Shown here one piece after another: positions 3,500 through 46,248 of a stretch of DNA of 46,248 bases. The stretch lies in contig NZ_JONK01000036.1 of assembly GCF_000711885.1 (NCBI RefSeq), positions 1 through 46,248 on the forward strand, written 5' to 3'. Numbering within the stretch: the stretch's first letter is position 1; every line of letters starts with the position of its first letter. Source of the DNA: Chromobacterium haemolyticum DSM 19808 (GTDB lineage: Bacteria; Pseudomonadota; Gammaproteobacteria; Burkholderiales; Chromobacteriaceae). The translations under genes were made by a program, and so were the position numbers. A model generated the notes under the pieces. It was not told the origin of the DNA. It saw nothing but the letters and a program-made list of their open reading frames with translations, and made no database searches.

Positions 3500-4358
3500 G
3501 GCGTTGTTGCACAAATCCTCCCCCGCCGCAGCTTGGTAAGATAGTGGCATGACCAAGCCTGCTCCAAAACGCTACCGAACAACCAACTGGAACGCCTACA
3601 ACCAAGCCCTGATCCAACGCGGCTCTCTGTCCGTCTATGTCATGGCAGGTGGCTCCTCAGGGCAAACGCGGACGGACGCAGACCTATAGCGATGCCGCCA
3701 TTCAATTCTGCCTGACCATCAAAAACCTGTTTGGACTCGCGTTGCGGCAAACCATCGGTTTCATCCAAAGTCTGCTCAAGCTGGCGGGCTTGGGCTGGGG
3801 CGTTCCCGACTACAGCACGCTATCCAGGCGGCAGCAGACGCTGCAGGTCAAGATTCCCTACCAGAAAAGCTCAGGCGCGCTGCATCTGCTGGTGGATAGC
3901 ACAGGCATCAAGATGTTGGGCGAAGGCGAGTGGAAAACCAAGAAGCATGGCGCGGAATATCGCCGGCAATGGCGCAAAGTGCATCTGGGCATCGATGCGG
4001 AAACCCTACAGATCCGCGCCATCGAGGTGACGGATAACCGCCAGGGCGATGCGCAAATGTTGCCTTCGCTATTGACGCAAATTCCGGCCGACGAGCCGAT
4101 AGGCTGCGTGAGCGGCGATGGTGCTTTCGATACCAAGACGTGCCATGAGGCGATTGCCGCACGGGGCGCGATCGGGTGCATCCCGACCCGCAAGAATGCG
4201 AGACCGTGGAAAGGCAATTCGCTGGGGGTGCTGGCTCGGAACGAAATTCTGCGGGCCACCAAGCGACTAGGCCGGGCGATCTGGAAACGTTGGAGCGGCT
4301 GGTAGAAACCAAAATGGGTTGCTTTAAACGGCTGGGTGAATCGCCCCTGCTTCTCTAG
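3500..4358 (+). mobile_element. Truncated IS5-family insertion sequence
   Basis: The left end reads GGCGTTGTTGCACAAATC, a typical terminus of IS5-group elements, and is followed by the transposase reading frame at 3549. The matching right terminus (GATTTGTGCAACAACGCC) is not found after the transposase remnant, so the right end is lost. The element lies inside the larger candidate island and so inserted after it, or was carried with it. Confidence 0.75.
3549..4358 (+). pseudogene. IS5-family transposase, broken by two frameshifting deletions
   Basis: The N-terminus (starting MTKPAPKRYRTTNW at 3549) runs into a stop at 3684-3686. The main part continues in another frame from about 3637 (MSWQVAPQGKRGR) to a stop at 4303-4305. 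It contains the catalytic aspartates in LLVDSTG and SGDGAFD. The conserved LVETKMGCFK part with the catalytic glutamate is found only in a third frame (about 4293-4345). The family motif Y-x2-R-x3-E-x6-K is therefore split, and its tyrosine and arginine are missing. Both breaks look like short internal deletions. The gene cannot make an active transposase. Confidence 0.85.
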
Positions 4359-4466
4359 ATTCTTTACGACTGCAATCCATACAGAAGCGGACGTCGAACA
4401 TCTGGCTGTAACTGATCACCTCAGTCGAAAAGCGAGCATCTGAAGAATTCGCGCAACATACAAAGA

Positions 4467-28936: not shown

Positions 28937-28957
28937 GTTGTCTTCTCTACTTAGCGC

Positions 28958-29040
28958 GGACTGAGACGAGACAAGACGAAACCCGCTGAGCAAGCGGAAT
29001 GCGCCGATCGCGCATGAGCATTTCCAATGCGGGTTTCAAC
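28958..29040 (+). repeat. Dispersed hairpin repeat, copy E (divergent)
   Basis: Shares GAGACAAGACGAAA and GCGGAATG...CATGAGCATTT with the other copies but lacks clear outer ends. The central hairpin ATGCGC / GCGCAT (28999-29004 with 29010-29015) differs from the usual ATGTAC / GTACAT at two base pairs, both compensated. It lies between the tRNA terminator and the DUF2939 stop codon. Confidence 0.65.
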
Positions 29041-29077
29041 ACCACAAGCCAACATGTGGCGGATCGTCAGCAGCTTC

Positions 29078-29632
29078 TTATTCGGGCAGCCGCACCGCCG
29101 ACAATTTCCAGCCGAACCAGCCATCGCGCTTGAAAATCAAGCCCAAGGACTGTTCGGGTTTCTCCTTCTGTTTCACCGTCACCACGAAGCGGTCAATGTC
29201 TTCATAGCCCATGGCCGTGTCCACGCCGGCGCGCCGATCTTCCGATGCGCCGCCGCCGGTCGCCGGCTCATCGGCGCCGCCTTGCGGCAGACCCGGCTTG
29301 GGCTTGATCCCCCGCATCATCAAGGCCAGGCTTTCCGGCGTCACCATGGCGTCCACCACCGGGGCGATCACCGCGTCGGCAATGGCCGCGCCCATCGCCG
29401 CCAAAGGATTCTTATCCTTGGACTGGTTCAACTCCAGCACCGACTTGGGCGCAACCGCCTCTTTCAGACTATTGCGCAAGGCGGGGTAGTCCACATAACC
29501 GGACAACTTGGCCGCGTCGCGCGCGTCCAGCGCCTGCTGCATCCCGCGCACCGTCAGATACGGCGTCGCGTAGAACCACGCCCCCAAGGCCAACACCGCC
29601 GCGCCCAGCGCCAGCTTCACTTTGATGCTCAT
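29078..29632 (-). CDS. DUF2939 family protein
   Basis: A 184-residue protein with one N-terminal hydrophobic segment (about 5-22, VKLALGAAVLALGAWFY), either a signal anchor or a signal peptide, then a soluble domain typical of DUF2939 (ATPYLTVRGMQQALDARDAAKLSGYVDYPALRNSLKE as a short-linker helical start). Its function is unknown. The frame is open upstream to 29854, but the ATG at 29630-29632, after GGGGATAAGC, matches the family start. The repeat copy A lies upstream of it. Confidence 0.82.
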   Translation of the reverse strand: MSIKVKLALGAAVLALGAWFYATPYLTVRGMQQALDARDAAKLSGYVDYPALRNSLKEAVAPKSVLELNQSKDKNPLAAMGAAIADAVIAPVVDAMVTPESLALMMRGIKPKPGLPQGGADEPATGGGASEDRRAGVDTAMGYEDIDRFVVTVKQKEKPEQSLGLIFKRDGWFGWKLSAVRLPE

Positions 29633-29747
29633 GCTTATCCCCCTGAATCGAGCGGCCGCGTCCATACGGCTCATAAAGTCTACAGACCGCCGGCCGGCGC
29701 GCAGATTCCCGCCGGCCACGGCAAAAAACGCGCGGCCGGTTTCCCTA

Positions 29748-29892
29748 AGCCTGTTCAAAGCCACGCGAGCAAGAGCGAGACTAGACGAAAACGAGCGAAA
29801 AAGCGGAGTGTACGAAGGGTACATGAGCATTTTGAGCTTGTACTCACCGTGCAACCCTCCACGAAGCGCAGCAGGCTTTGAGCAGGCTCTCA
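29748..29892 (+). repeat. Dispersed hairpin repeat, copy A
   Basis: Outer ends AGCCTGTTCAAAG (29748-29760) and CTTTGAGCAGGCT (29876-29888) form an inverted repeat. The core reads GCGGAGTGTAC...GGTACATGAGCATTT, with hairpin GTGTAC (29808-29813) / GTACAT (29819-29824). The right edge contains the TGA stop codon of the TonB receptor gene (29890-29892, minus strand). Confidence 0.8.
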
Positions 29893-32160
29893 GAAGCGCG
29901 CCTCCATCCCCATCCGTATGGTCCGCCCCGGGATCGGCATGCTGATCACGGAGCCGGGATCCACCGCATAGCGGTTGGTCAGGTTATCCACATTGAAATT
30001 CACGTTGACTTGCTTGTTCAGGCGGTACTCGATGAACAGGTCCACCAAGCGTTCGGACGCCAGTTCCAACACCGGTTGCGCGCCAGTGCCCTTGAGCCAG
30101 TCCGCCGGATTGGTCTTGCCCGAATGGTAGCGCCAGCGTCCGCCCACGGTCAGATCGCCGTTCAACAAATGCTTGCCGGCGGAAATCACGTATACGCTCT
30201 TGGGCGGGATGCGGGTCGGGATCAGACTCCAGGCGAAGCCGTTCGGATTGCACACCGCGGCGTCGCGCCGGGTCGCCTGGTTCACCGAACACACTTCCGG
30301 GTCCAGGTAGCGAGTGGCGGCGGCTTCCACGAAGAAGGACGGGCTATGGTAGTCCAAGCCGAATTCATAGCCGCGCAGCTCCACCTTGTCGTAGTTGAGG
30401 AAGGTCAGATTGCCCTGCCACGACGGCATGCCCGGCGTCCTGTCCAGCCAGGCGCTGGAAATATAGTCCGCTACCTTGTTGTCGAAATAGGCGGCCTTGA
30501 AGCCGATGCGCTCCTGATCGCGGAACACGTTCTGGAAACTCGCCTTAAGGCCCAGTTCCAGGTTCAGCGAACGCTCCGGCCGCAAGGGGTTGTAAGGGTT
30601 GTAGCTGAAGACCTCGGACGAGGTGGTTGTTTCGTACAGGCTGGGGGTGCGGTAGGCGCGGCCGCCTTTGGCGTAAACATCCAGCCACTTGGCCAGATGA
30701 ACGTCCACCTGGCCAGTCAGGTCCAGCTTGGGCGCGTAATCCGCTTCCAGATTGGTCGAATAGTCGCGCGTGGTCGAACCATGCAGATTCGTGCCCAGAG
30801 AGAAGCTGGCCCAGCGATAGGACAGGACGGCGTTGGCGAACAGGCTGCGCTCATTGCGCACCCCGTTGCGCGACGCTTCCAGCGTCCTCGGCTGCTCGGT
30901 GTAGCGGCTGGTGGGCTGGGTGCGCTCCTGCTGGAAGGCCAGGCCGTAGCTCAGGCTCAAGGGCAGGACATCCAGTTCTGATCGGTTGAGCACATTGAAA
31001 CCGTGACGCTTGTTGTTGTAGGCATGCATGTACTGATCGCCGTAGGAGGCGCCGGGGCGGCCGGCCCATAGGCCGTTGTGCTGATCCAGATCCGCCTCGG
31101 TGGCCCACAGGCCCAAGTTCAGGTCGATCAGCTTGTTGTCGCTGGGCGTATAGCTGTAGTTGGCGCTATAGGCATGCACCACGGCGCTGCCCAGCGCCCA
31201 TTGCGGCATCGACTCCACGCCTGGCGGCAGCTCTTGGAAATTCTTATCGTTGGAATTCTTGTACCAGTAAGCGGCCAGCAGTTCGCCGGCTTGCTGACGG
31301 TGGCGGCGGAAGATCAACTTCAAGCGCTGCGCGTCGTCCAGCGCGAAGCCCAGCTTGGCCAACAGAGAGTCGCTCTCGTAACTGGTGTTCACCACTTCCT
31401 GACCGCGCGACACCACCGCTTCCGGGTAGCCCTCATAGCCATGGACGCCGGCGAAGTAATTGCCGGTGCGCCGCTTGCTGTAAGCCAGCAGAGCGTCGAG
31501 GCCAGGCTGCCGATAAGCCAACGCCAGCGTGGCCGAACCGTTGTTGAACACTCGCGGGCTGAGGCCGTTGTTCAATTGGTAATACACTTGGTCGCGCTCG
31601 TCTCCAGGCACTGCGGGCATCTTGTTATTGTTGTACAGGCTGCCTTTCAACAGTACGCCGAAATCCTTGCCCGGACGCAGTACGTCCTCGACGCCCAAGG
31701 TACGCATCTGCACCAGGCCGCCAATCGCGCCGCTGGAGAAGGCGCCGTTGCTGGCCCCCTCCTCCACGCTGACCTTGCTGATCAAGTCGGAATCGATATA
31801 GGTACGGTCGCTGGTGCCCTGGTAGCCGCGGGCGGTATGGGTGGATTGCAGGCTGCCGTCTATCAATACCGGCACCCGCCCTTCGCCCTGCAGGCCGCGG
31901 ATGCCCAGGTCGATGGCGCCGGCTTCGTTGCGGATATTGTTGACCTGCACGCTGGGCAGGGCGGAAAAGATGTCGGCGTTGCCAGTGCCGCGCGCGCGGC
32001 GCAATTGCGCCGCATCCAGCTCCTCGCCATGCAAAAGCGCGCGTTTGCGCTCGGCGCTGACGTGAACGGTTTCCAGTTGCGGCGCGGGCTCGGCGGCCAG
32101 CAGGGTTTGCGGGTAAGCCGCCGACAGCAATAGGCAGGCGGAAAGACTCCGGTATTTCAT
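29890..32160 (-). CDS. TonB-dependent outer-membrane receptor (heme/siderophore type)
   Basis: A 756-residue outer-membrane channel for an iron complex. It has a signal peptide (1-22), a TonB box (ETVHVSA, 30-36), a plug domain (about 45-155), and a 22-strand barrel ending in phenylalanine. The motif NPLRPERSLNLELG and the ending PGRTIRMGMEARF resemble heme/hemoglobin receptors, but the substrate is not certain. A near-perfect Fur box lies upstream, so expression should rise when iron is scarce. Neither a heme-uptake ABC transporter nor TonB genes are adjacent. The stop codon is at the edge of repeat copy A. Confidence 0.9.
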   Translation of the reverse strand: MKYRSLSACLLLSAAYPQTLLAAEPAPQLETVHVSAERKRALLHGEELDAAQLRRARGTGNADIFSALPSVQVNNIRNEAGAIDLGIRGLQGEGRVPVLIDGSLQSTHTARGYQGTSDRTYIDSDLISKVSVEEGASNGAFSSGAIGGLVQMRTLGVEDVLRPGKDFGVLLKGSLYNNNKMPAVPGDERDQVYYQLNNGLSPRVFNNGSATLALAYRQPGLDALLAYSKRRTGNYFAGVHGYEGYPEAVVSRGQEVVNTSYESDSLLAKLGFALDDAQRLKLIFRRHRQQAGELLAAYWYKNSNDKNFQELPPGVESMPQWALGSAVVHAYSANYSYTPSDNKLIDLNLGLWATEADLDQHNGLWAGRPGASYGDQYMHAYNNKRHGFNVLNRSELDVLPLSLSYGLAFQQERTQPTSRYTEQPRTLEASRNGVRNERSLFANAVLSYRWASFSLGTNLHGSTTRDYSTNLEADYAPKLDLTGQVDVHLAKWLDVYAKGGRAYRTPSLYETTTSSEVFSYNPYNPLRPERSLNLELGLKASFQNVFRDQERIGFKAAYFDNKVADYISSAWLDRTPGMPSWQGNLTFLNYDKVELRGYEFGLDYHSPSFFVEAAATRYLDPEVCSVNQATRRDAAVCNPNGFAWSLIPTRIPPKSVYVISAGKHLLNGDLTVGGRWRYHSGKTNPADWLKGTGAQPVLELASERLVDLFIEYRLNKQVNVNFNVDNLTNRYAVDPGSVISMPIPGRTIRMGMEARF

Positions 32161-32195
32161 GATATGGGTGGGGTACTTGGGATAGGAGCGCCGAA

Positions 32196-32220
32196 GTTAA
32201 TGCTAATGATTATCATTAAC
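32196..32220 (-). promoter_or_regulatory. Fur box upstream of the TonB receptor
   Basis: On the minus strand the 19-mer GTTAATGATAATCATTAGC matches the Fur consensus GATAATGATAATCATTATC at 17 of 19 positions. It lies about 40-60 bp before the receptor start codon, a usual place for iron repression. Confidence 0.85.
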
Positions 32221-32283
32221 AACGTGATTATTCACACTCCACCTCACGCGACACCCATACTCGCCGCGGAATGACCTCCGCCG

Positions 32284-32754
32284 CTACTTGCCGTCCAACG
32301 GCACCTCCCAGCGCCGATCCTTGAGCGTGCGCATCACGATGTAGGAACAGATGTCGCGCATGCCGGGAATGCGGTTCAGCCGCTCCACGATGAAACCGCT
32401 AAAGGCCGCCAGATTGCGACAACGGACGTGCAGTACATAGTTGCTGGGACCGGCGACGATGTAAGCGGCGGCAATTTCCTCGAACTGCTGGATGCGGTTC
32501 ATGAAATCTTCGTGCCAATCCTCGCGCGCCCGGTCCAAGGTCACGTGCACGATGGCCTCCAGCTCGTAGCCGAGCAGGGCCGGGTCCAACTGCGCGTGAT
32601 AACCGCGTATCAGGCCCTGGCTTTCCAGCGTGCGCACTCGCCGCAGGCAGGCGGACGGAGACAGGGCCACCTGATCGGCCAGGTCCTGATTGCTGAGCCT
32701 GGCGTTGTGCTGCAATGCGGAAAGAATCCGGCAATCTATCGCATCAAGCTGCAT
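32284..32754 (-). CDS. kynR: Lrp/AsnC-family regulator, likely KynR
   Basis: A 156-residue regulator with an N-terminal helix-turn-helix (LDAIDCRILSALQHNARLSN, then LADQVALSPSACLRRVRTLE) and a C-terminal RAM ligand domain (about 65-150). It faces kynB divergently, followed by kynU and a permease. In Pseudomonas aeruginosa KynR, an Lrp-type protein responding to kynurenine, controls the same genes in the same arrangement. The open frame reaches 32868; the ATG at 32752-32754 gives the family length. The name is an inference from context. Confidence 0.85.
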   Translation of the reverse strand: MQLDAIDCRILSALQHNARLSNQDLADQVALSPSACLRRVRTLESQGLIRGYHAQLDPALLGYELEAIVHVTLDRAREDWHEDFMNRIQQFEEIAAAYIVAGPSNYVLHVRCRNLAAFSGFIVERLNRIPGMRDICSYIVMRTLKDRRWEVPLDGK

Positions 32755-32836
32755 TTGCAATTTCCCATCGTTATCTATCCGTTTCGCTGCAGTTCCTGCG
32801 AAAAGCATGCCATCAGCAAGAGCAACTTGCAATTTC
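32755..32836. promoter_or_regulatory. kynR-kynB divergent control region with repeated TTGCAATTTC
   Basis: TTGCAATTTC occurs at 32755-32764 and again at 32827-32836, exactly 72 bp apart (close to seven helical turns), in the gap between the divergent genes. Spaced identical sites are typical for Lrp-type octamers. Binding by the KynR-like protein is inferred. Confidence 0.4.
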
Positions 32837-32894
32837 TGGCGGAGGCCTTGGTGATAGCATGATTCCAAGCTTTTCGCCTCTCTGGAGCCGCTCC

Positions 32895-33548
32895 ATGTTG
32901 CTTGACATCAGCCCCCCGCTGCGCGCCGGCCTGCCGGTCTGGCCCGGCGACACCGCTTTCGACGCCAGCCCGGCCTGGCAGCTGGACGCCCACTGTCCGG
33001 TCAACGTGGCGCGACTGACCCTGTCTCCGCACAGCGGCGCGCACGCCGATGCGCCGGCCCACTTCCAGGCCGCCGGCCAAGGCATCGGCCAAGTCGCGCT
33101 GGACGCCTACTTGGGGCCCTGCAGGGTGATTCACTGCCTGTCTCCCGGCCCTCTGATCCGGCTGGAGCAGATCCAGTCCCGGCTCGCCATCCAAACCGGG
33201 CCGCTGCCGCCGCGCCTGTTGATCCGCAGCTATACGCGCTACCCGCTGGAGTCCTGGGACGCGGACTTCCCCGGCGTGGAGGCCGCCGCCATAGATTGGC
33301 TGGGCGGCCAGGGCGTGCGCCTGATCGGCGTCGATACCGCCTCGCTGGACCCGATGGACAGCAAAACCATGGACGCCCATCACGCCACCGCGCGTCAACG
33401 CATGGCCATCCTGGAACAATTGCTGTTGGACCACGCGCCGGAGGGCGATTACGAGCTGATCGCGCTGCCGCTGAAGTTGATGAACCTGGACGCCAGCCCG
33501 GTGCGCGCCGTGCTGCGACCCTTGTCCGTTTCCACCCCTCTCGTGTAG
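32895..33548 (+). CDS. kynB: Kynurenine formamidase
   Basis: Hydrolyses N-formylkynurenine to kynurenine and formate in tryptophan degradation. The 217 residues contain the metal-binding family motif [12 protein letters not shown] (46-57) and [13 protein letters not shown]. The start at 32895 follows GGAG; the open frame upstream to 32715 is not used. kynU follows 8 bp later. kynA (tryptophan 2,3-dioxygenase), which makes its substrate, is not in the window. Confidence 0.94.
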
Positions 33549-33556
33549 GACCCGCC

Positions 33557-34810
33557 ATGAAACACACTCGCGAAGCTTGTCTCATCGCCGATCAGCAAGA
33601 CCCGCTGGCCGGCTTCCGCCAACGGTTCGACCTTCCGGCCAACACCATCTACCTGGACGGCAACTCGCTGGGCGTGCTCCCCAAGGGCGCGCTGGAGCGC
33701 AGCCAGCAGGTGATCACCCGCGAATGGGGTCATGATCTGATTCGCAGCTGGAACACCGCCGGCTGGTTCGAAATGCCGACGCGCTTGGGCGACAAACTGG
33801 CGCCGCTACTGGGCGCCGGCCCCGGCGAAACCGTGATCACCGACACCACCTCGCTCAACCTGTTCAAGGCGCTGGCGGCGGCCTTGCGCATCCAGCGGCA
33901 AGCCCACCCGGAACGCAAGGTGATCCTGTCCGAGCGCGACAACTTCCCCACCGATCTCTACATGATCCAGGGCATGATCGAATTCCTGCAGCAGGGCTAT
34001 GAACTGCGCCTGATCGACGAGGCGCTGCCGCTGGAACAGGCGCTGGACGACAAGGTGGCGGTGCTGCTGCTGTCCCACGTCAATTACCGCACCGGCTATC
34101 TCTACGATATGGCCGCGGTGACCCGTAGCGCTCATCAACACGGCGCGCTGGCGATCTGGGACCTGGCCCACGCGGCCGGCGCGTTGCAAGTTGACCTGAA
34201 GGGCGCGGACGCCGACTTCGCCGTGGGCTGCACTTACAAATACCTGAACGGCGGCCCGGGCTCGCCGGCCTTCATCTGGGTGGCCCCGCGCCATCAAAAC
34301 GCTTTCTGGCAACCCTTGTCCGGCTGGTGGGGCCATGCCAAACCCTTCGAGATGGCCGCCGACTACGCGCCGGCCCAGGGCATCCGCCGCTTCCTGTGCG
34401 GCACCCAGCCCATCGTGTCGCTGGCGTTGCTGGAGTGCGGCCTGGACGTGGCGCGAGAGGTGGACAGCCAGCAGCTGCGCGCCAAGTCCCTGGCCCTGAC
34501 CGATCTGTTCATCGAGTTGGTGGAACAACGTTGCGGCGGGCATCCGCTGACCCTGATCACCCCTCGCGAGCACGCGCGCCGCGGCAGCCACGTCAGCTTC
34601 CGCCACCCGCAGGGCTTCGCGGTGATGCAGGCGCTGATCGCCAACGGCGTCATTGGCGACTACCGTGAGCCGGAAGTGCTGCGCTTCGGCGTCACCCCGC
34701 TTTACCTGAGCCATGCCGACATCTGGGACGCGGTGGAAATTCTGCGCGAGATACTGGACAGCGGCAGTTGGGACCGCCCGGAGTTTCATCGCCGCGGCGA
34801 GGTAACCTGA
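33557..34810 (+). CDS. kynU: Kynureninase
   Basis: A pyridoxal-phosphate enzyme that cleaves kynurenine to anthranilate and alanine. The 417 residues include DGNSLGVLP, the phosphate-binding TSLNLFK region, [13 protein letters not shown] with the PLP-contacting Asp, and the Schiff-base lysine in CTYKYLNGG. It starts 8 bp after kynB with AGGA upstream, clearly in one operon. The anthranilate made could feed quinolone or tryptophan-derived pathways. Confidence 0.96.
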
Positions 34811-34819
34811 ACCCGGCAC

Positions 34820-34887
34820 GGCGCGACGTCCCAAACCGTCGCGCCTCCCTAGAGCCGCCGCCCGCGATCTCACGCGGCCGGCGGCTC
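34820..34887 (+). other. Two strong hairpins between kynU and the permease gene
   Basis: GGCGCGACG (34820-34828) pairs with CGTCGCGCC (34837-34845), and GAGCCGCCG (34852-34860) pairs with CGGCGGCTC (about 34879-34887), extended by an inner CGCG pairing. Neither is followed by a T run, so they are not simple terminators. They may stabilise the kynBU message or reduce expression of the permease gene. Confidence 0.55.
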
Positions 34888-34944
34888 AACAGCGCAAGGG
34901 ACGTTAGATCCCGCAAATAGCGCCATCTACAGAGGAGAAACATC

Positions 34945-36333
34945 ATGAGCAGCTTCCAGGACATCAAAGACAGAGAACAAGGCTTGCAACGCCGGCTCAC
35001 CGCCGGACAGATGAGCATGATCGCCATCGGCGGCGCCATCGGCACCGGCCTGTTCCTCGGCAGCAAGTTCGCCATCGGCTTCGCCGGACCCAGCGTGGTG
35101 CTCAGCTACGCCATCGGAGGCCTGATTACCTTGTTGCTGATGGGCTGTCTGGCGGAGATGACGGTGGCGCACGCCACCTCCGGCTCCTTCGGCGCCTACG
35201 CCGAGCACTACGTCAGCCCCTTGGCTGGTTTCCTGGTGCGCTACAGCTACTGGGCCTGCGTGGTGCTGGCGGTGGGAACCGAAATCACCGCCGTGGCCGA
35301 ATACATGCGCTACTGGTTTCCAGACACCCCGCCCTGGATCTGGATTCTGCTGTTCTCCAGCGCGCTGATCGGCGTCAACGCCGCCAGCGTCAAGGCCTTC
35401 GGCACCGTGGAGTACTGGTTCTCCTCCATCAAGATCTTCGCCATCCTCGCCTTCATCCTGATGGGCTGCTACGTAGTGTGGGGCAGCGGCAACCCTGCTT
35501 ACGGCGCGCACAACTTCAGCGCCGACGGCGGCTTTTTCCCCAACGGTGTCTGGGGGATGTGGGTGGCGGTGGTCATTTCCATCTTCAGCTATCTGAGCGT
35601 GGAAATGATCGCGGTGGCCGCTGGCGAGGCCGAAAATCCGGAGCAGGCGGTGCGCCAGGCTTTCCGCGCCACGATCGCGCGGCTCGTGGTGTTCTACCTG
35701 CTGTCGCTGAGCCTGATCATCGCCATCGTGCCCTGGGGCCGCATCGGCTCCGGCAACAGCCCCTTCGTCACCGTGATGCAGGTGCTTAATATCCCCTACG
35801 CAGCCGGCATCCTCAACTTCGTGGTGGTGGTGGCCGCTCTGTCGGCGATGAACAGCCAGCTCTACATCACCACCCGCATGATGTTCAGCCTGTCGCGCGC
35901 CGGCGACGCGCCTGTAGGGCTGGGCAAACTGAACCCGCGCGGCATTCCGGTCAACGCGCTTCTGCTGTCCACCAGCGGCATCGCGCTGGCGGCGGTGCTG
36001 TACGTGCTGTTTCCGCAACAGGCGTTCACGCTGATGATTTCCTTGTCGATGTTCGGCGCCATGTTCACCTGGCTGATGATCTTCTACACGCATCTTCGCT
36101 TCCGCCGTCATCACGATCAGGCCGGCGGGCTGGATCTGCCATTCAAGATGCGCCTGTTTCCCTACAGCACGCTGACCGGGCTGGTGCTGATGCTGGCGAT
36201 CATGGTCACCACCGTCTTTACCGAGGTCTTCCGGCTGACCCTGGTCTTCGGCCTGCCCTTCCTGCTGTTGCTGGTCGTCCTCTATCACAAAGTGCGCAGG
36301 CCGCGGCTGACGCCCGCGGCGCAAACGAATTAA
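34945..36333 (+). CDS. kynP: APC-family amino-acid permease (kynurenine/aromatic type)
   Basis: A 462-residue inner-membrane transporter with about 12 helices and the amino-acid permease signature IGGAIGTGLFLGS (about 28-40), then EMTVAHATSGSFGAYAEHY. It resembles AroP/GABA-type permeases. Its place after kynBU suggests uptake of tryptophan or kynurenine, and a permease lies in the same place in the P. aeruginosa kyn locus. The substrate is inferred. It has its own start and GAGGAG ribosome-binding site, 134 bp after kynU. Confidence 0.85.
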   Translation: MSSFQDIKDREQGLQRRLTAGQMSMIAIGGAIGTGLFLGSKFAIGFAGPSVVLSYAIGGLITLLLMGCLAEMTVAHATSGSFGAYAEHYVSPLAGFLVRYSYWACVVLAVGTEITAVAEYMRYWFPDTPPWIWILLFSSALIGVNAASVKAFGTVEYWFSSIKIFAILAFILMGCYVVWGSGNPAYGAHNFSADGGFFPNGVWGMWVAVVISIFSYLSVEMIAVAAGEAENPEQAVRQAFRATIARLVVFYLLSLSLIIAIVPWGRIGSGNSPFVTVMQVLNIPYAAGILNFVVVVAALSAMNSQLYITTRMMFSLSRAGDAPVGLGKLNPRGIPVNALLLSTSGIALAAVLYVLFPQQAFTLMISLSMFGAMFTWLMIFYTHLRFRRHHDQAGGLDLPFKMRLFPYSTLTGLVLMLAIMVTTVFTEVFRLTLVFGLPFLLLLVVLYHKVRRPRLTPAAQTN

Positions 36334-36372
36334 GCCCAGTTGTGCAATCGCCAGGCCGGGTCCGCCCGGCCT

Positions 36373-36516
36373 GAGCCTGTTCAAAGGATTCCGCTTATGA
36401 GCGGAACAAGACGAAAACAGCCGGAAAAGCGGAATGTACCCGTGGTATATGAGCATTTCGAAATCCTTTGCAATACCGTACCGCCGCAGCGCGTCAGACT
36501 TTGAACAGGTTCTGAC
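36373..36516 (+). repeat. Dispersed hairpin repeat, copy B
   Basis: Outer ends GAGCCTGTTCAAAG (36373-36386) and CTTTGAACAGGTTC (about 36499-36512) are inverted. The core hairpin is ATGTAC (36434-36439) / GTATAT (36445-36450), including one G-U pair on this strand. It lies between the permease gene and the ABC transporter operon. Confidence 0.8.
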
Positions 36517-36580
36517 ACCGCTATCGGATTCGGCATAGAATGTTCGACTCGATACCCAATCCGGATAGCCCGCCTCCGCC

Positions 36581-38353: not shown

Positions 38354-40100
38354 TCAATCCGCGATCAATCGGCGCCGGGCGGTGGCCCTGCTGCGCCAAT
38401 CCGCCGCTCCGGAAAACCGCCATGTGCTGTGGGGCACGCTGTGGCTGATCGCCGCCGCGCTGATGGAAGCGCTGTCGCCGCTGCTGGGCAAGGTATTCAT
38501 CGACCGCTACCTTCTGCCGCGCACGCCGCAGTGGCTGGAAATGGGCCTGCTGCTGCTCGCCTGTCTGATGGCCGGCTACGTCGCCTCCAGCCTGCGTTAT
38601 CTGCAACTGGTGCGCCTGTCCGGCGTGGCGATGCGCTCGGTGCAAAGACTGCGCGAGCAGGTTTACCGCCATGTGATCCGGCTGCCGATGGCTTTTTTCG
38701 ACAAAGCGATCACCGGCCAACTGGTCAGCCGCGTCACCAACGACACCGAGTCGGTAAAGGCGTTGTACGTGCAGGTGCTGTTCGTGATGCTGGACAGCAG
38801 CATCGTGGTGATCGGCGTGATGGCGGCGATGGCCTGGCTGGATTGGCAGCTGATGCTGCTGGCGGCGATGCTGCTGCCGGCGATGCTGGCCATCGTCTGG
38901 CTGTATCAGCGCTGGAGCGCGCCGTCGGTGACGCGAGCCCGCGCGCTGCGCAGCGACATCAACGCTCAGATGGCGGAATCCATCTCCGGCATGAGCGTGC
39001 TGCAAGCCTCCAACGCCACCGGCCGCTTCGCCGAGCGTTTCGATCAGGCCAACCACAATTACTACCGGGCGCGGATCGCGGAACTGAGCGCCAACGCCTG
39101 GCTGCTGCGGCCGGCGCTGGACTTGCTGAAAGTGCTGCTGCTGGCCGGGGTGATCTACAGCTTCAGCCAACGGCCGCTGGGTGCGCTGCAGATAGGCGTG
39201 CTCTACGCCTTCATCAGCTATATCGGCCGCATGGTGGACCCGCTGATCCAGATCACCATGCAGTTCAGCCAGCTGCAGCAAGCGGTGGTGGCGGCGGCGC
39301 GGGTGGACGCGCTGCTGCAGGAGCCGGCCGCAACGGCCGGCCAAGGCGGGGGCCGCATTGGCCGGGGCGCCGTCAGCTTCCGCCAGGTGAGTTTCGGCTA
39401 CCAGCCCGAACGGCCGGTGCTGCTTGATCTTTCGCTGGAGATTCCGGCCGGCGGCTTCATCGGCATCGTCGGCCACACCGGCAGCGGCAAGTCCACGCTC
39501 TTGTCGCTGCTGCTGCGCTTCTACGCGCCGCAAAGCGGCGAGATCCTGATAGACGACCAAGCGCTGGCCACTTTCGACGACGCGGCCTTCCGCGACGGCG
39601 TCGGCCTGGTGCCTCAGGAGCCCTTCCTGCTGGCCGCCAGCGCGCGCGACAACATCGCCATGGGCCGGCCGCTGTCCCAGCAGCAAATCGAGGACGCCGC
39701 ACGCGCCGCCGGGGTGCATGACTTGATCCTGGCCTTGGAACAGGGCTACGACACCGATATGGGCGAGAGCGGCTCGCGGCTGTCCAGCGGACAGAAGCAG
39801 TTGATCGCCATCGCCCGCGCGCTGGCGGGCCGGCCGCGCATCCTGCTGCTGGACGAGGCCACCTCGCATATCGACAGCGAAACCGAGCAGCTGGTGCAAA
39901 GAGCGCTGGAACGGCTTCGCGGCCAGATCACGCTGATCTCCATCGCCCACCGGCTTTCCACCATACGCGACGCCGACCGCATCATCGTGCTCAACCACGG
40001 CCAGATCGCCGAAACCGGAAGCCACGAGGAATTGATGACCATGGGCGGCATCTACCAACGGCTATACTTGCTGCAGCAATTGCAGCCGGAAGCCGGCTGA
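38343..40100 (+). CDS. mdlB: ABC exporter half-transporter, MdlB type
   Basis: The 585-residue partner of the preceding gene. It has six helices (about 15-310), Walker A GHTGSGKST (near 378), signature LSSGQKQL (near 480) and canonical Walker B with glutamate, LLLDEATSHID. Together the two form a heterodimeric ABC exporter with one normal and one impaired ATP site. The start overlaps the mdlA end. Confidence 0.88.
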   Translation: MKSDQSAINRRRAVALLRQSAAPENRHVLWGTLWLIAAALMEALSPLLGKVFIDRYLLPRTPQWLEMGLLLLACLMAGYVASSLRYLQLVRLSGVAMRSVQRLREQVYRHVIRLPMAFFDKAITGQLVSRVTNDTESVKALYVQVLFVMLDSSIVVIGVMAAMAWLDWQLMLLAAMLLPAMLAIVWLYQRWSAPSVTRARALRSDINAQMAESISGMSVLQASNATGRFAERFDQANHNYYRARIAELSANAWLLRPALDLLKVLLLAGVIYSFSQRPLGALQIGVLYAFISYIGRMVDPLIQITMQFSQLQQAVVAAARVDALLQEPAATAGQGGGRIGRGAVSFRQVSFGYQPERPVLLDLSLEIPAGGFIGIVGHTGSGKSTLLSLLLRFYAPQSGEILIDDQALATFDDAAFRDGVGLVPQEPFLLAASARDNIAMGRPLSQQQIEDAARAAGVHDLILALEQGYDTDMGESGSRLSSGQKQLIAIARALAGRPRILLLDEATSHIDSETEQLVQRALERLRGQITLISIAHRLSTIRDADRIIVLNHGQIAETGSHEELMTMGGIYQRLYLLQQLQPEAG

Positions 40101-40118
40101 ACCAGCGACGACTCCGCC

Positions 40119-40913
40119 ATGCACCGTTTTCTCTCCCCGCCCGCGTCCGACGCGCTGATCGACACCCACTGCCATCTGGACGCGCCGGAGCTGGCCCCGA
40201 TGCTGTCCGCCGTGCTGGAACGCGCGCGCGCCGCCGGCGTGGGCCAGATCCTGGTGCCCGCGGTGCGCGCCGACACCTTCGCCGCCGCCGCCGCCCTGCG
40301 CCGCGACCACGGTTGCTGGATAGGCTTCGGCCTGCATCCCATCTACCTGGAACGGCATCTGGACGAGCATCTGGGAGAGCTGGAGCGCGCGCTGCGCGAA
40401 CAGCGACCGGAAGCGGTGGGGGAAATCGGTCTGGATTTCTATCTGCCGGAACTGGACCCGGCGCGGCAGGAAGCCTTGTTCGTCGAACAGCTGAAACTGG
40501 CGCGCAAATACGCGCTGCCCGTGGTGCTGCATGTGCGCCGCTCGGTGGACCGCGTGCTCAAACATCTGCGCGAGCAGCGCGTCGAGCTAGGCATCGCCCA
40601 CGCTTTCAACGGCAGCCCGCAACAGGCGGAAGCGATGCTGCGCCAGGGCATGAAGCTGGGCTTCGGCGGCGCGATGACCTACTCCGGCTCGCAGCGCATC
40701 CGCCGGCTGGCGGCCACCTTGCCGCTGTCGGGCCTGGTGCTGGAGACCGATGCGCCGGACATCCGCCCCGAGTTCGCCCAGGGCCGGCCCAACGAGCCGG
40801 CCCATCTGGCCGCCTTCAGCGCCTTGCTGGCCGAACTGCGCGGGCTGCCGGAACCGCAACTGCGCCAGGCCCTGCGCCGCAACAGCCTGGACGCTTTGGG
40901 CATCGCCGGCTGA
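40119..40913 (+). CDS. TatD-family metal-dependent hydrolase
   Basis: A 264-residue protein with the metal-binding DTHCHLD (15-21), GEIGLDFY and VLETDAPDI motifs of the TatD DNase family (YcfH/YjjV type). Family members are Mg-dependent exonucleases linked to DNA repair or quality control, and the name does not imply a role in Tat export. It follows mdlB by 18 bp and may share its transcript. Confidence 0.88.
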   Translation: MHRFLSPPASDALIDTHCHLDAPELAPMLSAVLERARAAGVGQILVPAVRADTFAAAAALRRDHGCWIGFGLHPIYLERHLDEHLGELERALREQRPEAVGEIGLDFYLPELDPARQEALFVEQLKLARKYALPVVLHVRRSVDRVLKHLREQRVELGIAHAFNGSPQQAEAMLRQGMKLGFGGAMTYSGSQRIRRLAATLPLSGLVLETDAPDIRPEFAQGRPNEPAHLAAFSALLAELRGLPEPQLRQALRRNSLDALGIAG

Positions 40914-40935
40914 GATGAAGCCTCTTCCCTCAGCA

Positions 40936-41076
40936 CTTGTTCAAAGTCTGCTGCGCTTCGGCGATAGGCGTTGAAAACCAGCCCAAAATGCTCATGTACC
41001 ACGTGCACATTCCGCTTTATTCACTGGTTTTCGCCTTGTCTCCCTCTTGCTCGCGAGACGTTGAACAGGCTCTCAG
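40936..41076 (-). repeat. Dispersed hairpin repeat, copy C
   Basis: Read on the minus strand it starts GAGAGCCTGTTCAACG and ends CTTTGAACAAG. The core hairpin ATGTGC / GTACAT (41010-41005 with 40999-40994) needs a G-U pair, which exists only on the minus strand. The edge at 41073-41075 is the TGA stop of the chemoreceptor gene. Confidence 0.8.
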
Positions 41077-42704
41077 GTGCGAAAACGCCTGAGATTGGAG
41101 TCCAAATCCACCGACAACTGCTGCAACTCCTGCGATAGCCGGCTGGCCTGACCGGAGGCTTTGGCGGTGCTTTCGTTCATCTGCGCCATCTGCTCTACAT
41201 TGCCCGCCACCAGTTGACTGGCGTGGCTCTGCTCCTTGATCGCGTTGGCGATGTCGGAGATGCGCTCAACCGAATGCTGCGACAGCTGATGAATTTCACG
41301 CAACGATTCGGCCACGCTGGAGGTGCTGCTGACGCCGCTCTCGATGCGGGCATTCGCCTGCTGCATGCTCTGATAAGCACGCTGAGTATCGGTCTGCACG
41401 CCCTCGATATGGGTGGATATTTCCGTCGTGGCCTGGCTGGTGCGTTCGGCCAGCTTGCGCACTTCATCGGCCACCACGGCGAAGCCGCGGCCCATCTCGC
41501 CGGCGCGCGCGGCCTCGATCGCCGCGTTCAAGGCCAAGAGATTGGTTTGATCGGCGATGTCGCGGATCACCCGCACAATGTCGCCAATATCGCTGGAGCG
41601 CTGATTCAATTGGTCCATCACGGTGGAAGTTTCCGTAATGCCGCTGGCGATCCGCTGAATCTCGCTGGCGGCTTTCTCCGCCAGGCCGTTGCCTCTATCC
41701 GCCTGCGCCATGGTCTGGCGCGCCTGATCTTCCACATCACGGGTGTTGTCCGCCACCAGATTGATACTGACCGACATCTGCTCAATCGCCGCCGCGCCGC
41801 TGGCGGCGGACTCCGCCTGATTGGCCGCGGCCCCGGACACCTGGGAACTGACGTCGGCCATTTGTCCGGAAGCGTTGGCCAATTGGGTGGCGTGCCCCTG
41901 CGCTTCCTGCACCAAGCGGCGCACGGTGCCGACCAAGGAAGCCAGCGACTCCCCGACACTGCCCAGCTCGTTACGGCCAAAGTCCGGCAGCTTCAAGTTC
42001 AGATCGCAGGTTTGCGCCAACTGCTGCGCGGAGTCCCGCATCTGCAGCAAGGGCACGCGGATGGAGCGGATGATGTACCAAGACACCACCAGGCTAGCCA
42101 GCAGGCCGATCACCACCGTGGCCAGCAACTGGCTGCGCACCGCGTCCGCGGAGGCGTCGATCTGGCTGCGCAGCTGCGCCACTGCGTCGGAACCGCCCTT
42201 GGCCAGCTTGGCCGAGACCTCTTCCATCTGGTGAATACTGCTCTTGTACTGGCCAAACGCCTTGTTGGCGTCGCTGGTGCCGGCAAGCTCCTGCTTGTCC
42301 ACCTTCGCCGCCACTGCCTTGAAACCGTCCGCATAGCTGTTGAGCAGCCCGTCCAGCGCCGTCAGTTGCTGAGTGGCGTCGCCGTTCAGCGGGTGCGTGC
42401 CGGCGTTCTTGATCGCCGCATGCGCGCTCTCTATTGTTTTATTCCATTTCTCGCTGTACTCGGCGCGCTTGGCCGCGTCACCCATATTGATGAAATAGTC
42501 TTTCTCGAAGCGCCGCAGATTGCCCATGTGCTGCTGCAAACCCACCACGTCGCGGTAAAAGGCCAACTCATGGGTGCTGACATCCTCCACCCGGCTGGAA
42601 ATACTCCCCAAGCCGATGAAAGCCAGCAAGCTGGTCACCGCCAGCGCCACCAACAACAAGGCGAAACCCAGGGTAATCCGGGCCGCAATCGTCATATTCC
42701 GCAT
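41073..42704 (-). CDS. Methyl-accepting chemotaxis protein (four-helix-bundle sensor)
   Basis: A 543-residue inner-membrane chemoreceptor. It has TM1 (about 10-32), a periplasmic helical-bundle sensor (about 35-190), TM2 (about 193-213), HAMP (about 214-265) and a signalling domain whose tip reads [20 protein letters not shown], conserved for CheA/CheW binding. There is no C-terminal CheR-tethering pentapeptide. It signals to the flagellar or another chemosensory system; the ligand is unknown. The start follows GGGGAG. Its stop codon is at the edge of repeat copy C. Confidence 0.93.
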
Positions 42705-42852
42705 TTACACACTCCCCAACCAAACTGTATTTTTTGGATTTCCGCCGATCAAGCCCGCGGTTTCGCCGCGATTGTAAACCAAGCCGTTTGCGGTTTTACT
42801 CGCATGACTCCGGCAAGTTTCACAGTCTGCGTCCCGCATGAGCCGCGGGCAC

Positions 42853-42882
42853 AAAAAAAGCCGCCAGCATGAGCTGACGGCT
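42853..42882 (-). terminator. Terminator of the his-tat gene group
   Basis: The stem AGCCGTCAGC / GCTGGCGGCT (one mismatch) with a 4-base loop is followed on the minus strand by TTTTTTT. It lies about 20 bp past the DUF2069 stop codon. Confidence 0.88.
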
Positions 42883-42904
42883 TCCTTTTCGCTGCGCGCG
42901 GAGT

Positions 42905-43258
42905 CTACTGCGGTTGACGCGACAACTTGAAAGTTCTGGCAAAGCCCAATACACAGACGAAGAATAGTCCGCTCAAGAAGATTTCGCCCCATGCAAGTTG
43001 CTGCGACAGGCCGCGATCCGCCCAACCGCGCATCACGCCCTCGGTGAAATAGGCCAGGATGAACATGCTGGCCCATTGATAGGTATACAAGCGCCGCCCC
43101 AGGATGCCGCGCAGCGGCAGCAGCAGCACCGCCGCCTTAAGCGCCAGCAGCGAGCCGCCTGGACGCAGCGGCGCCAGCCACAGCTCCCAGGCCAGGCACA
43201 GCAGAATCAGCGCGATCAGCGACGCCGACGCGCCGTAATGCCAGGCGTTTCGATTCAT
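42905..43258 (-). CDS. DUF2069 membrane protein
   Basis: A 117-residue protein with about four hydrophobic helices and charged ends (MNRNAWHYGASASLIAL at the start, then FARTFKLSRQPQ at the end), the DUF2069 pattern of beta- and gamma-proteobacteria. Its function is unknown. Its ATG overlaps the tatC stop (ATGA), so it is translated with the Tat genes. The frame is open upstream to 43339, but the overlap and family start favour this ATG. Confidence 0.82.
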   Translation of the reverse strand: MNRNAWHYGASASLIALILLCLAWELWLAPLRPGGSLLALKAAVLLLPLRGILGRRLYTYQWASMFILAYFTEGVMRGWADRGLSQQLAWGEIFLSGLFFVCVLGFARTFKLSRQPQ

Positions 43259-43995
43259 GAACCATCCTCCAGCAATGGACGCTCCTTCTTGCGGCCCAGG
43301 AATACCGCCATCAGAATGCCCGCTTCGTACAGCAACCACAGCGGCACCGCTAGCAGGGTTTGCGACAGCACGTCCGGCGGCGTGACAACGGCGGCCACCA
43401 CGAAGGCGCCGACGATGACATAAGGCCGGCCCTGACGCAGTTTTTCCACCGACACCACGCCCATGCGCACCAGCAGGATCACCACCACCGGCACCTCGAA
43501 GGTGACGCCGAAGGCCATGAACATGCCCAGCACGAAGGACAGGTATTTATCGATGTCGGTCATCATGCTGACCCCGACCGGCGTTACCGCCGACATGAAG
43601 CCGAACACCACGGGGAACACCAGGAAATAGGCGAAAGCCATGCCGATAAGGAAGAGCAGCAGGCTGGCCACTACCAAGGGCAGCACCAACCGTTTCTCAT
43701 GGTGGTAGAGCCCGGGCGCGACAAAGGCCCAGATCTGATACAGGGTATTGGGCAGCGAGATCAGGAAAGCCACCAGCATGGTCACCTTGACCGGTACGAA
43801 GAACGGCGCGGTGACATCGGTGGCGATCATGTTCGCCCCCGCAGGCAGCGCGTCCAGCAATGGTTTGGCCAACAGGTGGTAGATATCCCCGGACCAATGG
43901 AACAGGCCGAGAAACACCAACGCGATACCGAGCAGCGCCCGCACCAGACGGGTGCGCAACTCAAGCAGATGCGCGAGCAAGGGTTGTTCATTCAT
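43255..43995 (-). CDS. tatC: Sec-independent protein translocase TatC
   Basis: The multispanning receptor for twin-arginine signal peptides. The 246 residues begin MNEQPLLAHLLELRTRLVRA and have six helices, with the conserved FEVPVVVILLVRMG and FVVAAVVTPPDVLSQ regions. An upstream TTG (44010) could extend it by five residues, but the ATG matches the family. It follows tatB after a gap of about 70 bp. Confidence 0.95.
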   Translation of the reverse strand: MNEQPLLAHLLELRTRLVRALLGIALVFLGLFHWSGDIYHLLAKPLLDALPAGANMIATDVTAPFFVPVKVTMLVAFLISLPNTLYQIWAFVAPGLYHHEKRLVLPLVVASLLLFLIGMAFAYFLVFPVVFGFMSAVTPVGVSMMTDIDKYLSFVLGMFMAFGVTFEVPVVVILLVRMGVVSVEKLRQGRPYVIVGAFVVAAVVTPPDVLSQTLLAVPLWLLYEAGILMAVFLGRKKERPLLEDGS

Positions 43996-44067
43996 GCGCG
44001 GGATTTCCAATGGATTCAGGAACGGCCGAAGCGGGAACCAGCTCCGCCCGGCCGGGTGCGGCCGGCC

Positions 44068-44562
44068 TCAGCGTAGCGATGGCGGCTCCACCGGCTGGGG
44101 CGGCGACGGCGGCAAGTCGTCGAACAGATCCAGTTGGTTCTCGTCCTTGACCGGCGCCGTCTCGGCCTGCGCCGCTGGCTCGACCGGAAGAGGCTCCAGC
44201 AGATCCGGCTGCAGGCCGCCGTGGATGACGTTGGCCGCCTCTTCCACCGGCGCGCGCGCCTCGTCCGCCAGCGCGCGCAGTTCGGCGCCGTTCTGCTCCA
44301 TCGCCTCGCGCACGCCCCGAACTTCGGAATCGAGCTGGCCTTTGAACGACTGCGCGGCGTCCTCGATGTCCTGCCGCAATTCGTTCAGACCGGTCAAGTT
44401 GGCCTGCTGCTGGATATCGGCCTTCACCGTGGCCACAAAGCGCTGGGCGCGGCCCACCAACGCGCCCAGAGTGCGCGCCACCGTGGGCAGGCGCTCCGGC
44501 CCCAGCACCACCAGGGCCACCACGCCTATCAACAGGATTTCGCCAAAGCTGATTTCAAACAC
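44068..44562 (-). CDS. tatB: Tat translocase subunit TatB
   Basis: A 164-residue protein with one N-terminal helix (MFEISFGEILLIGVVALVVL), the GPERLP hinge, an amphipathic helix and a long acidic/Pro-rich tail. It forms the Tat receptor complex with TatC. It starts 14 bp after tatA. Confidence 0.95.
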   Translation of the reverse strand: MFEISFGEILLIGVVALVVLGPERLPTVARTLGALVGRAQRFVATVKADIQQQANLTGLNELRQDIEDAAQSFKGQLDSEVRGVREAMEQNGAELRALADEARAPVEEAANVIHGGLQPDLLEPLPVEPAAQAETAPVKDENQLDLFDDLPPSPPQPVEPPSLR

Positions 44563-44576
44563 GCTTGAACCGCGCC

Positions 44577-44789
<213 letters not shown>

Positions 44790-44858
44790 TCACTTCCTTA
44801 TCAAATCGAATGAATGCGCGGAGGCCGCCCGGCCGTCCGCTCCGGCCTGATCGGCCAA

Positions 44859-45182
44859 TCAGTTTTTGTGGCCGAATACATGCACGTGCAGGTGAAACAC
44901 TTCCTGCCCGCCGCCGCGGCCGGTGTTGATGCCGGTCTTGAAACCAGCCTCCAGACCCTGTTCGCGCGCCAATTTGGGCGCCAGCGTCAGCATCTTGCCC
45001 AGCACCGCCTCGTGCTCGGGACCGCAATGGGCCAGCGAGTCCACGTGTTGCTTGGGAATCAGCATGAAATGCACGGGAGCGATCGGACGAATGTCGTGGA
45101 AGGCCAGCACATCGTCGTCTTCGTAGATTTTATTGGCCGGAATCTGCCCGGCCACGATTTTGCAGAAGATGCAATCTGTCAT
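44859..45182 (-). CDS. hinT: HIT-family nucleotide-binding protein (HinT-like)
   Basis: A 107-residue purine-nucleoside phosphoramidase-type protein with the HLHVHVFG triad and the CIFCKIVAGQIPANK start. It lies between hisE and tatA, a common order in beta-proteobacteria. Its exact physiological substrate is unknown. Confidence 0.93.
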   Translation of the reverse strand: MTDCIFCKIVAGQIPANKIYEDDDVLAFHDIRPIAPVHFMLIPKQHVDSLAHCGPEHEAVLGKMLTLAPKLAREQGLEAGFKTGINTGRGGGQEVFHLHVHVFGHKN

Positions 45183-45204
45183 TGTTGTCGGCTCTCGCTA
45201 AATC

Positions 45205-45531
45205 TTAAGGGGTGGGGGCGCGGGAGGCCTTTTCATCCAGGCCGGAAATACCCTCGCGCCGCTTCAACTCCATCAGCACGTCCTCGGGCCGCAGGCCATG
45301 ATAGGTCAGCAACACCATGCTGTGGAACCACAGATCGGCCACCTCGCGCACCAAGTGCAGCTTGTCCTTGTCCTTGGAGGCCATCAGCGTCTCTGCCGCC
45401 TCCTCCGCCACTTTCTTCAAAATGGCGTCCTCGCCCTTGTGAAACAGGGACGCCACATAGGAAGACTGGGAACTGGCTTCGCGCCGCGCTTCCAGCGTGT
45501 CCGCGATGGTTTTCAGCACATCCTGGCTCAT
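45205..45531 (-). CDS. hisE: Phosphoribosyl-ATP pyrophosphohydrolase
   Basis: The second step of histidine synthesis, hydrolysing phosphoribosyl-ATP to phosphoribosyl-AMP. The 108 residues carry the all-alpha NTP-PPase motif [14 protein letters not shown] and [15 protein letters not shown]. It is a separate gene from hisI, 124 bp downstream of it. Confidence 0.95.
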
Positions 45532-45655
45532 GTCGCTATTCCTTTACGCCGCAACCCCGGCAAGTATATGTCGTTCCGATGGCAAAACGATAACAATCGG
45601 CTTGCCGGCTGCCATTCTAACGGCCGGCCGCCGCGCGGCGTTGACCGCGCGCAAG

Positions 45656-46048
45656 TCAATCCTTGCGATAGATCGCATCCGGGTCCTTCAACACCGCGTC
45701 GACAACTACCCAATCCTGCCGCGCAGAGTCGAAACGTCGGTAGAAACAGCTTTCACGGCCAGTGTGGCAGGCAATGCCGCCAGCCTGCTCGATCTGCATC
45801 ACCACCACGTCGCCGTCGCAATCCAGCCTCAGCTCCTTGACGGTTTGCAGATGGCCGGAGTCCTCGCCCTTCTTCCACAGCTTGCCGCGCGAGCGGCTCC
45901 AGTAATGAGCGACGCCGGTTTCCGCGGTCAAGGCCAGGCTGTCGCGGTTCATCCATGCCACCATCAGCACCCGGCCGCTGGCGGCGTCCTGGGCGATGGC
46001 GGCCACCAGGCCCTTGTCGTCCCATTTGACTTCATCCAACCAATTCAT
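45656..46048 (-). CDS. hisI: Phosphoribosyl-AMP cyclohydrolase
   Basis: The third step of histidine synthesis, opening the adenine ring of phosphoribosyl-AMP. The 130 residues include [12 protein letters not shown], the Mg-binding DCDGDVVV, and the Zn-binding [11 protein letters not shown]. hisF is usually just upstream in beta-proteobacteria; here about 110 bp after the start codon the hairpin repeat (copy D) begins, and no hisF is visible before the window ends. Confidence 0.95.
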
Positions 46049-46160
46049 GGCTCACCTTTGCACCGCGCGCCTTGGCTATGAGTGGCGGCGCGGAAAATGA
46101 TTCAGCGCGGCGTCCGCTTCGCTTCAAATTAAGACGCCGGCAAGTGGGTTTATGTTCTAA

Positions 46161-46248
46161 GAACCTGTTTACGATCTGCTGCGCGTTGGCGATACGGCGT
46201 TGAGAACAGCTTCAGAATGTTCATGTACCGTGTGTACATTCCGCTTTT
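46161..46248 (-). repeat. Dispersed hairpin repeat, copy D (cut by window end)
   Basis: Begins GAACCTGTTTACGATCTGCTGCG and has the same orientation as copy C. Its core hairpin ATGTAC (46223-46228) / GTACAT (46234-46239) is perfect. The remainder is beyond the window. Confidence 0.75.

Follow-up and report, generated by a model that had tools for sequence, protein, structure and literature searches.

Several families of short, non-autonomous bacterial repeats have been described that are relevant to the element analyzed here. MITEPsy1 of Pseudomonas syringae, a miniature inverted-repeat element (MITE) of approximately 100 nt, is ascribed in its description to an IS5-like element and reported to have been shown to transpose; MITEPsy1-like sequences are reported there from Pseudomonas, Marinobacter and Klebsiella (PMC3189936). 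The repeats R0, R2 and R178 of Pseudomonas fluorescens are described as abundant, intergenic and MITE-like, with a bias towards tail-to-tail genes (PMC2718517), and the QMITEs of Coxiella burnetii are presented as MITEs whose transcripts fold and which gave rise to small RNAs (PMC10969869). A further related family is sX9 (RF02228), by its Rfam name a Xanthomonas sRNA, which a survey places among the 20 most prevalent bacterial sRNAs (PMC9029176).

We analyzed a repeat found in a stretch of Chromobacterium DNA of 46,248 nt (referred to below as the window). It is likened to MITEPsy1 by description and not by interior sequence, and differs from it in that the latter has the ends GGAAGGTCTGAAAAAGCC and is described with a 4-nt duplication (PMC3189936). 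The ends of R0 and R2 are, like those of our element, also found on resident insertion sequences, and R178 (101 bp, with internal repeats) is compared with it by description only (PMC2718517). The QMITEs, also likened by description, differ in their 7–9 bp duplications and longer core (PMC10969869). Literature searches within openly accessible main texts returned no description of the core in the titles and abstract openings listed: short core strings were found only in papers which, judged by titles and abstracts, concern other subjects, and no paper joined "miniature inverted-repeat" with Chromobacterium.

Copies of the repeat in the window

A covariance-model scan of the whole window, with which an nhmmer search concurred, revealed five copies and no more (Table 1). 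Neither scan placed a copy before 28.9 kb, and five related copies at these places, preceded by 28 kb without any, are what a preliminary description of the window had reported. An nhmmer search of 1.806 Mb out of the 5.03-Mb genome found 187 copies (144 of them near full length), a density of 104 per Mb which extrapolates to approx. 520 copies for the whole genome. The family is thus dispersed, as had been proposed, and chance is excluded as the source of the window copies. Their number is ordinary, since approx. 4.8 are expected per 46 kb at the genomic density, and the location of all five within the last 17 kb represents mild clustering.

Table 1. Copies of the repeat in the window (positions are those of the window)
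Copy	Position	Strand	Core	Central stem	Ends and target sites
A	28952–29078	+	28969–29046	ATGCGC/GCGCAT	degenerate ends; nhmmer E 3.2e-11, covariance model 67.2 bits
B	29743–29893 (including target sites)	+	29778–29854	GTGTAC (29808–29813)/GTACAT (29819–29824)	found by nhmmer and covariance model; left target site damaged, right one (TCA) serves as stop codon of predicted gene 29890–32130 (−)
C	36369–36516 (including target sites)	+	36404–36480	ATGTAC/GTATAT	
D	40929–41076	−	40964–41041		duplicated TGA (element orientation); one TNA forms the stop codon of predicted gene 41073–42704 (−)
E	46160–46248	−	46193–46248		second end type; contig end cuts the element

The inverted ends that all five copies had been said to share are present, as AGCCTGTTCAAAG, on the copies at 29748, 36373 and 40932; those of the copy at 28958 are degenerate, and the contig-end copy at 46161 bears the other end type, AACCTGTTTACGATC. 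The central stem ATGCGC/GCGCAT had been assigned to copy E, and actually belongs to the copy at 28958.

The window also contains a transposase-like frame (3649–4305, + strand), with a PF01609 match at 3874–4365 that includes one internal stop, and, where the contig starts (34–282, + strand), another, weak match to PF01609. The contig begins inside a transposase, as do several others, which is expected if IS copies break the assembly.

MITE features and a probable resident IS5-family partner

When full, the element is approx. 143 bp long and contains no transposase gene. Its ends are the same as those (AGAGCCTGTTCAAAGTCT) of a resident IS of approx. 0.86 kb (C3, 189.66–190.52 kb), whose two overlapping frames, each scanned separately, match NF033580 (NCBIfam IS5_3), PF01609 (DDE_Tnp_1) and PF13340 (DUF4096). 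In contrast to the element, this IS5-family IS has a transposase gene, and the element core is absent from it. The left end of the IS (L072, 1472–1520) resembles the element also just inside the terminal repeat (GAGTAAGAGC compared with GAGCAAGAGC). Adjoining the same-ended IS, at C3 189493–189660 (L072), we observed nested copies, one inserted in another at CTTAG. The other end type, GATCGTAAACAGGTTC, is borne by a transposase fragment located at a contig end beside a copy.

Among 120 copies with both ends clear, 83 were flanked by TNA on both sides, and in 66 of these the two TNA were the same (shuffled mean 28, maximum 41 in 5000 shufflings). Empty sites in relatives, the search for which had been suggested in the preliminary description, were found at window positions 40929–41076: L300 and L301 carry a single CTCAG there, L299 carries an element in the opposite orientation, L302 also carries an element, and the more distant congeners are too diverged for an empty-site call. 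At 29743–29893 every one of the five close relatives, the genome under study among them, carries an element. The repeat is short and non-coding, reaches a high copy number, shares its ends with an IS, duplicates its target and is missing from one site in two relatives. The window copies are non-autonomous MITEs with the ends of a resident IS5-family element. Spread of the repeat through the Chromobacterium genome has probably depended on borrowed transposases, and to judge from the shared ends the resident IS5-type element may mobilize the copies. One end of each type was present in 26 of the 120 copies (9 were untyped), which points to exchange between element halves.

With respect to genes, which were called by simple codon-usage predictions made for this analysis, a single copy out of 120 lay inside a predicted gene. 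For the 118 copies with both neighbor genes called, the TNA was the stop codon of a neighbor gene in 47, compared with 189 of 788 other non-genic CTNAG sites (p = 4e-4), and 41 copies lay between convergent genes, compared with 208 of 1329 gene pairs (p = 1e-6). Between co-directional genes there was no orientation bias (34 to 30). Of the stop-codon copies, 32/47 were antisense to the preceding gene, which places the − strand in the transcript (p = 0.019). A link between orientation and local GC skew (108 to 79, p = 0.04) was rejected as too weak and confounded with gene direction.

Core fold and covariation

On the + strand the core is predicted to fold, from the outside in, into a variable outer stem, a tandem G·A loop, the helix AAAAGC/GC-A-TTTT, a GGA/GA loop, a 6-bp stem and a loop of 4–6 nt; the hairpin carries two tandem G·A loops and a bulged A. 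The variation in loop length, from 4 to 6 nt (the search pattern allowed 3 to 6 nt before a fixed GTA), led us to reject a protein operator of fixed spacing.

We built a covariance model (R1) from 30 cores chosen by a pattern fixing GCGGA and ATGAGCAT, so that the conservation of these two strings is no independent evidence. Such evidence comes from the pairing and from the outer stem and lower loop. In the 30 seed cores 83.7% of the cells were paired, and 51 double-change cells were counted, compared with 21 after shuffling and at most 15 after sliding. In 112 distinct sequences from many hosts, aligned by fitting to R1, which favors structure, 91.7% of the cells were paired and the double-change cells numbered 325, compared with 75 after shuffling and at most 76 after sliding. 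Both sides had changed in 23 of 25 pairs, and the same outer-stem positions covaried through AU, GC, CG and UA. Of the 100 loci from which this set was drawn, 80 had much of the core fixed by the genome pattern, which left free the outer stem, the site of most of the double changes. The covariation test proposed in the preliminary description thus upholds its claim of a hairpin kept by compensatory change, double-change cells exceeding the shuffled number in both sets.

At 21 loci of the phylum, found by R1 alone as the one best locus per genome (R1 ranks conserved matches first), the lower GA/GA loop, the upper 3′ GA and the bulged A were present in 21/21, and the upper GGA in 20 to 21. The closing pair was G·U in 84, A·U in 26 and G·C in 1 of 111 sequences, its U being mostly pattern-fixed. 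Since the tandem G·A pairs and the G·U/A·U closing pair make sense on the + strand alone, we regard this as the folding strand, which agrees with the strand originally favored. RNA folding z-scores of four + strands were −4.8, −5.1, −6.9 and −8.5, and those of the − strands of the first three −1.9, −4.0 and −6.6.

Relationship to Rfam sX9

At the gathering threshold Rfam detected in the window a tRNA only, and a permissive search added sX9 below threshold. The best of 66 sX9 matches in the genome reached 33.7 bits, below the gathering score of 44, and among 369 genomes of the class 5 exceeded this score and 8 matched at E ≤ 1e-4. Nevertheless, 19 of 20 sX9 loci matched R1 at E ≤ 1.4e-4; in each case the R1 match lay on the opposite strand and overlapped that of sX9. 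These loci resemble our element in the fold (19/20) and in having terminal repeats, of several types; they differ in being modeled on the opposite strand, as an sRNA, and in a lower stem that reads GGAACC/GG-A-TTCC in place of AAAAGC/GC-A-TTTT. From these alignments it appears that loci scored as sX9 may in good part be such repeats read on the other strand. The family, which had not been assigned to any known kind, is a MITE with IS5-family ends, and Rfam sX9 models the opposite strand of its relatives.

Distribution among hosts

The hairpin shape predicted from the alignments is found again, between different outer ends, in repeats from very distant bacteria. A search by covariance model, of the kind previously recommended, gave R1 matches in 85 of 398 evenly drawn genomes of the phylum and in 41 of 213 genera at E ≤ 0.001. 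Scoring was limited to 12 sites in each genome and the E-values are approximate; for many of the fragmentary genomes that lie outside the class, the top match had an E no better than 1e-4 to 1e-9. Among 18 congeners, a first search yielded 289 to 316 candidates in each of four, against 399 in the genome under study; the other 14 had 0 to 8 matches. A locus of one congener (G013) is present in full in a contig of Chromobacterium alkanivorans, and a locus of another (G009) is largely present in C. piscinae, with 78% of its 40-mers and the remainder falling past the stretch of contig compared; these matches place the genus as Chromobacterium. A DNA query from the Chromobacterium element had no match in 12 genomes of other families.

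A DNA pattern matched at least 117 stretches in a named genome collection, of which 80 were examined. The hosts among the matches listed included Pseudomonas, Stutzerimonas, Halomonas and relatives, Undibacterium, Nitrosomonadales, Gallionella, Rahnella and Chromobacterium, together with at least 14 stretches of Bacteroidota (Alistipes 11, Rikenellaceae 2, Tannerella 1). One Alistipes genome of 1.6 Mb contained 35 R1 matches and 67 end sites, most pairs of which span 116 bp; this argues against contamination. Five other genomes scanned alongside had 60, 33, 10, 1 and, in one case that reached the scoring cap, at least 150 R1 matches. Among the end sites listed for this fragmentary Alistipes genome no pair lay approx. 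1 kb apart, as a partner IS would require, the pairs being short elements. Phage records contained no match to the Chromobacterium element or the Pseudomonas core, and E. coli genomes none to the Pseudomonas core. In plasmid records, one (Halomonas) matched the Chromobacterium element, 25 matched the Halomonas element and 8 the Pseudomonas core.

Ends vary while the core stays

An inverted pair scoring ≥8.5 surrounded 93 of 118 cores, three of the latter from the Chromobacterium genome (a few pairs are spurious). The elements so defined span 138–152 bp in 52 cases and 115–170 bp in 86. Their end types include GCAGGCCGTTGAAAAAC, AGAGGGTGTTTACAAA, GGCTCTGTACGAAAA, CTCTGATTAAC, ACTGTGTCACAAAGCG and TGAATAAAAAG. 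At 16 phylum loci with clear ends, the left and right ends of one element agreed at 89% of positions, and the ends of different loci at 50%, compared with 43% in a shuffled control. Between the 21 phylum loci found by R1, identity was 79% in the core and 56% in the arms of the outer stem.

PF01609 matches were present in 7 of 12 further genomes. L263 and L278 carry an IS of approx. 915 bp (with an interrupted transposase frame in L278), the ends of which are like those of elements of other hosts, mostly at 15–16 of 19 letters; those of L263 agree with the L099 element at 18/19 letters and with L164 at 16, and those of L278 with the L204 element at 16/19. The elements of their own genomes (L121 and L110, one examined in each) have different ends, and a same-genome IS match is therefore seen for Chromobacterium only.

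A short module such as TCGGACTCGCGCACGAGCC recurs at an equivalent position within the right arms of elements whose ends differ, in Pseudomonas and Halomonas relatives (L105, L146, L147, L207, L208, L213, L214 and L099), which suggests modular exchange of arms.

Where selection probably acts

Selection on RNA had originally been deduced from non-Watson-Crick pairs that were all G·U on one strand. This is true of the copies at 29748, 36373 and 40932, each of which has a single such pair, G·U on the + strand of the element. Genome-wide the argument fails, because among 148 distinct copies rare G·U pairs (36) do not exceed rare A·C pairs (50; p = 0.16), and the total of 286 G·U against 204 A·C is dominated by inherited forms. 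Between hosts, with relatedness ignored, the counts over every pair were 151 G·U and 77 A·C, one basal-helix pair supplying 40 of the A·C and the closing pair 84 of the G·U; the seven outer-stem pairs nearest the lower loop gave 36 and 10.

The central stem, part of a hairpin that covaries strongly across lineages, has all six pairs standard in only 77 of the 148 copies in the genome. The stem-breaking left half AUGGUC occurs in 27, and the form AUGGUC/GUACAU, with two of the six central pairs broken, has multiplied to 18; this and the low number of intact central stems count against our preferred explanation. At 29743–29893, identity among five species was 72–87% for the element and 80–93% for the intergenic flank, the element falling below the flank in 10/10 pairs and the 77-nt core in 9/10; replacement by other copies is possible at this site. 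The fold seems to be kept in propagating lineages rather than at each locus. Single copies drift while lineages keep the fold, and the element's own spread therefore fits better than service to the host.

Alternative explanations

If the hairpin were a host-serving RNA, selected locus by locus as a terminator, a stabilizer of mRNA 3′ ends or a small RNA such as sX9, the strong folding of the four + strands would be expected, and the listing of sX9 as an sRNA, the almost exclusively intergenic position, the enrichment between convergent genes and at stop codons, and the excess of stop-codon copies with the − strand in the transcript would all suit it. Location can equally reflect the removal of harmful insertions, however, and co-directional pairs show no orientation bias. 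Moreover, the 148 copies lack wobble asymmetry, barely half of them keep the central stem, and orthologous elements diverge more than their flank, so that we consider a host RNA unlikely. The decay of copies inside the genome and the multiplication of a broken-stem form would instead suit an ordinary palindromic MITE with a role-free interior, its likeness between hosts being due to recent horizontal spread and common origin only; the elements on Pseudomonas and Halomonas plasmids indicate that it is able to travel. Yet recent spread would keep ends and interior alike, whereas it is the ends that differ most, and the outer stem covaries through all four Watson-Crick combinations while the unpaired G·A loops stay constant. 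This explanation, too, we regard as improbable. A structured single-strand fold with conserved mismatches, at high copy number in intergenic DNA, also recalls REP/REPIN-like elements, moved by an HUH (RAYT) transposase that recognizes the folded single strand. Such an origin is very hard to reconcile with the long ends held in common with a DDE transposase element and with the TNA duplication. HUH elements are not known to make such a duplication.

We consider it likely that the repeat is an IS5-family MITE whose interior fold is maintained by compensatory change and aids its own spread in cis, and we read it as a superfamily of MITEs in which the ends change and a single-strand fold is under selection. 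A resident IS5-type transposase would recognize the element ends, GARCCTGTTCAAAGTC or GARCSTGTTTACGATC, and insert the element into C-TNA-G, duplicating TNA; where the TNA is a stop codon, the stop would thereby survive. The interior of the + strand would fold as a single strand, compensatory change maintaining the fold in the multiplying lineages through many ends and hosts. Acting in cis for the spread of the element, either as a transcript or as exposed single-stranded DNA, the fold may bind something common to very different hosts. New ends may be acquired when halves of elements recombine, and would then suit the transposase present locally. More tentatively, and with some doubt, the hairpin might be a portable spreading module, a structured motif of RNA or single-stranded DNA older than any terminal repeat. 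It would recruit a factor that Pseudomonadota and Bacteroidota have in common and allow a very small non-autonomous element to be refitted with ends suited to the transposase of each host; we rate this no higher because a matching IS in the same genome is seen for one host only.

MITEs are normally defined by their ends, and no importance is attached to what lies between. In this element it is the middle that has been conserved across phyla and the ends that have changed. The conserved middle would then be a component of a selfish element that is under selection and open to test, and it raises the question of its binding partner.
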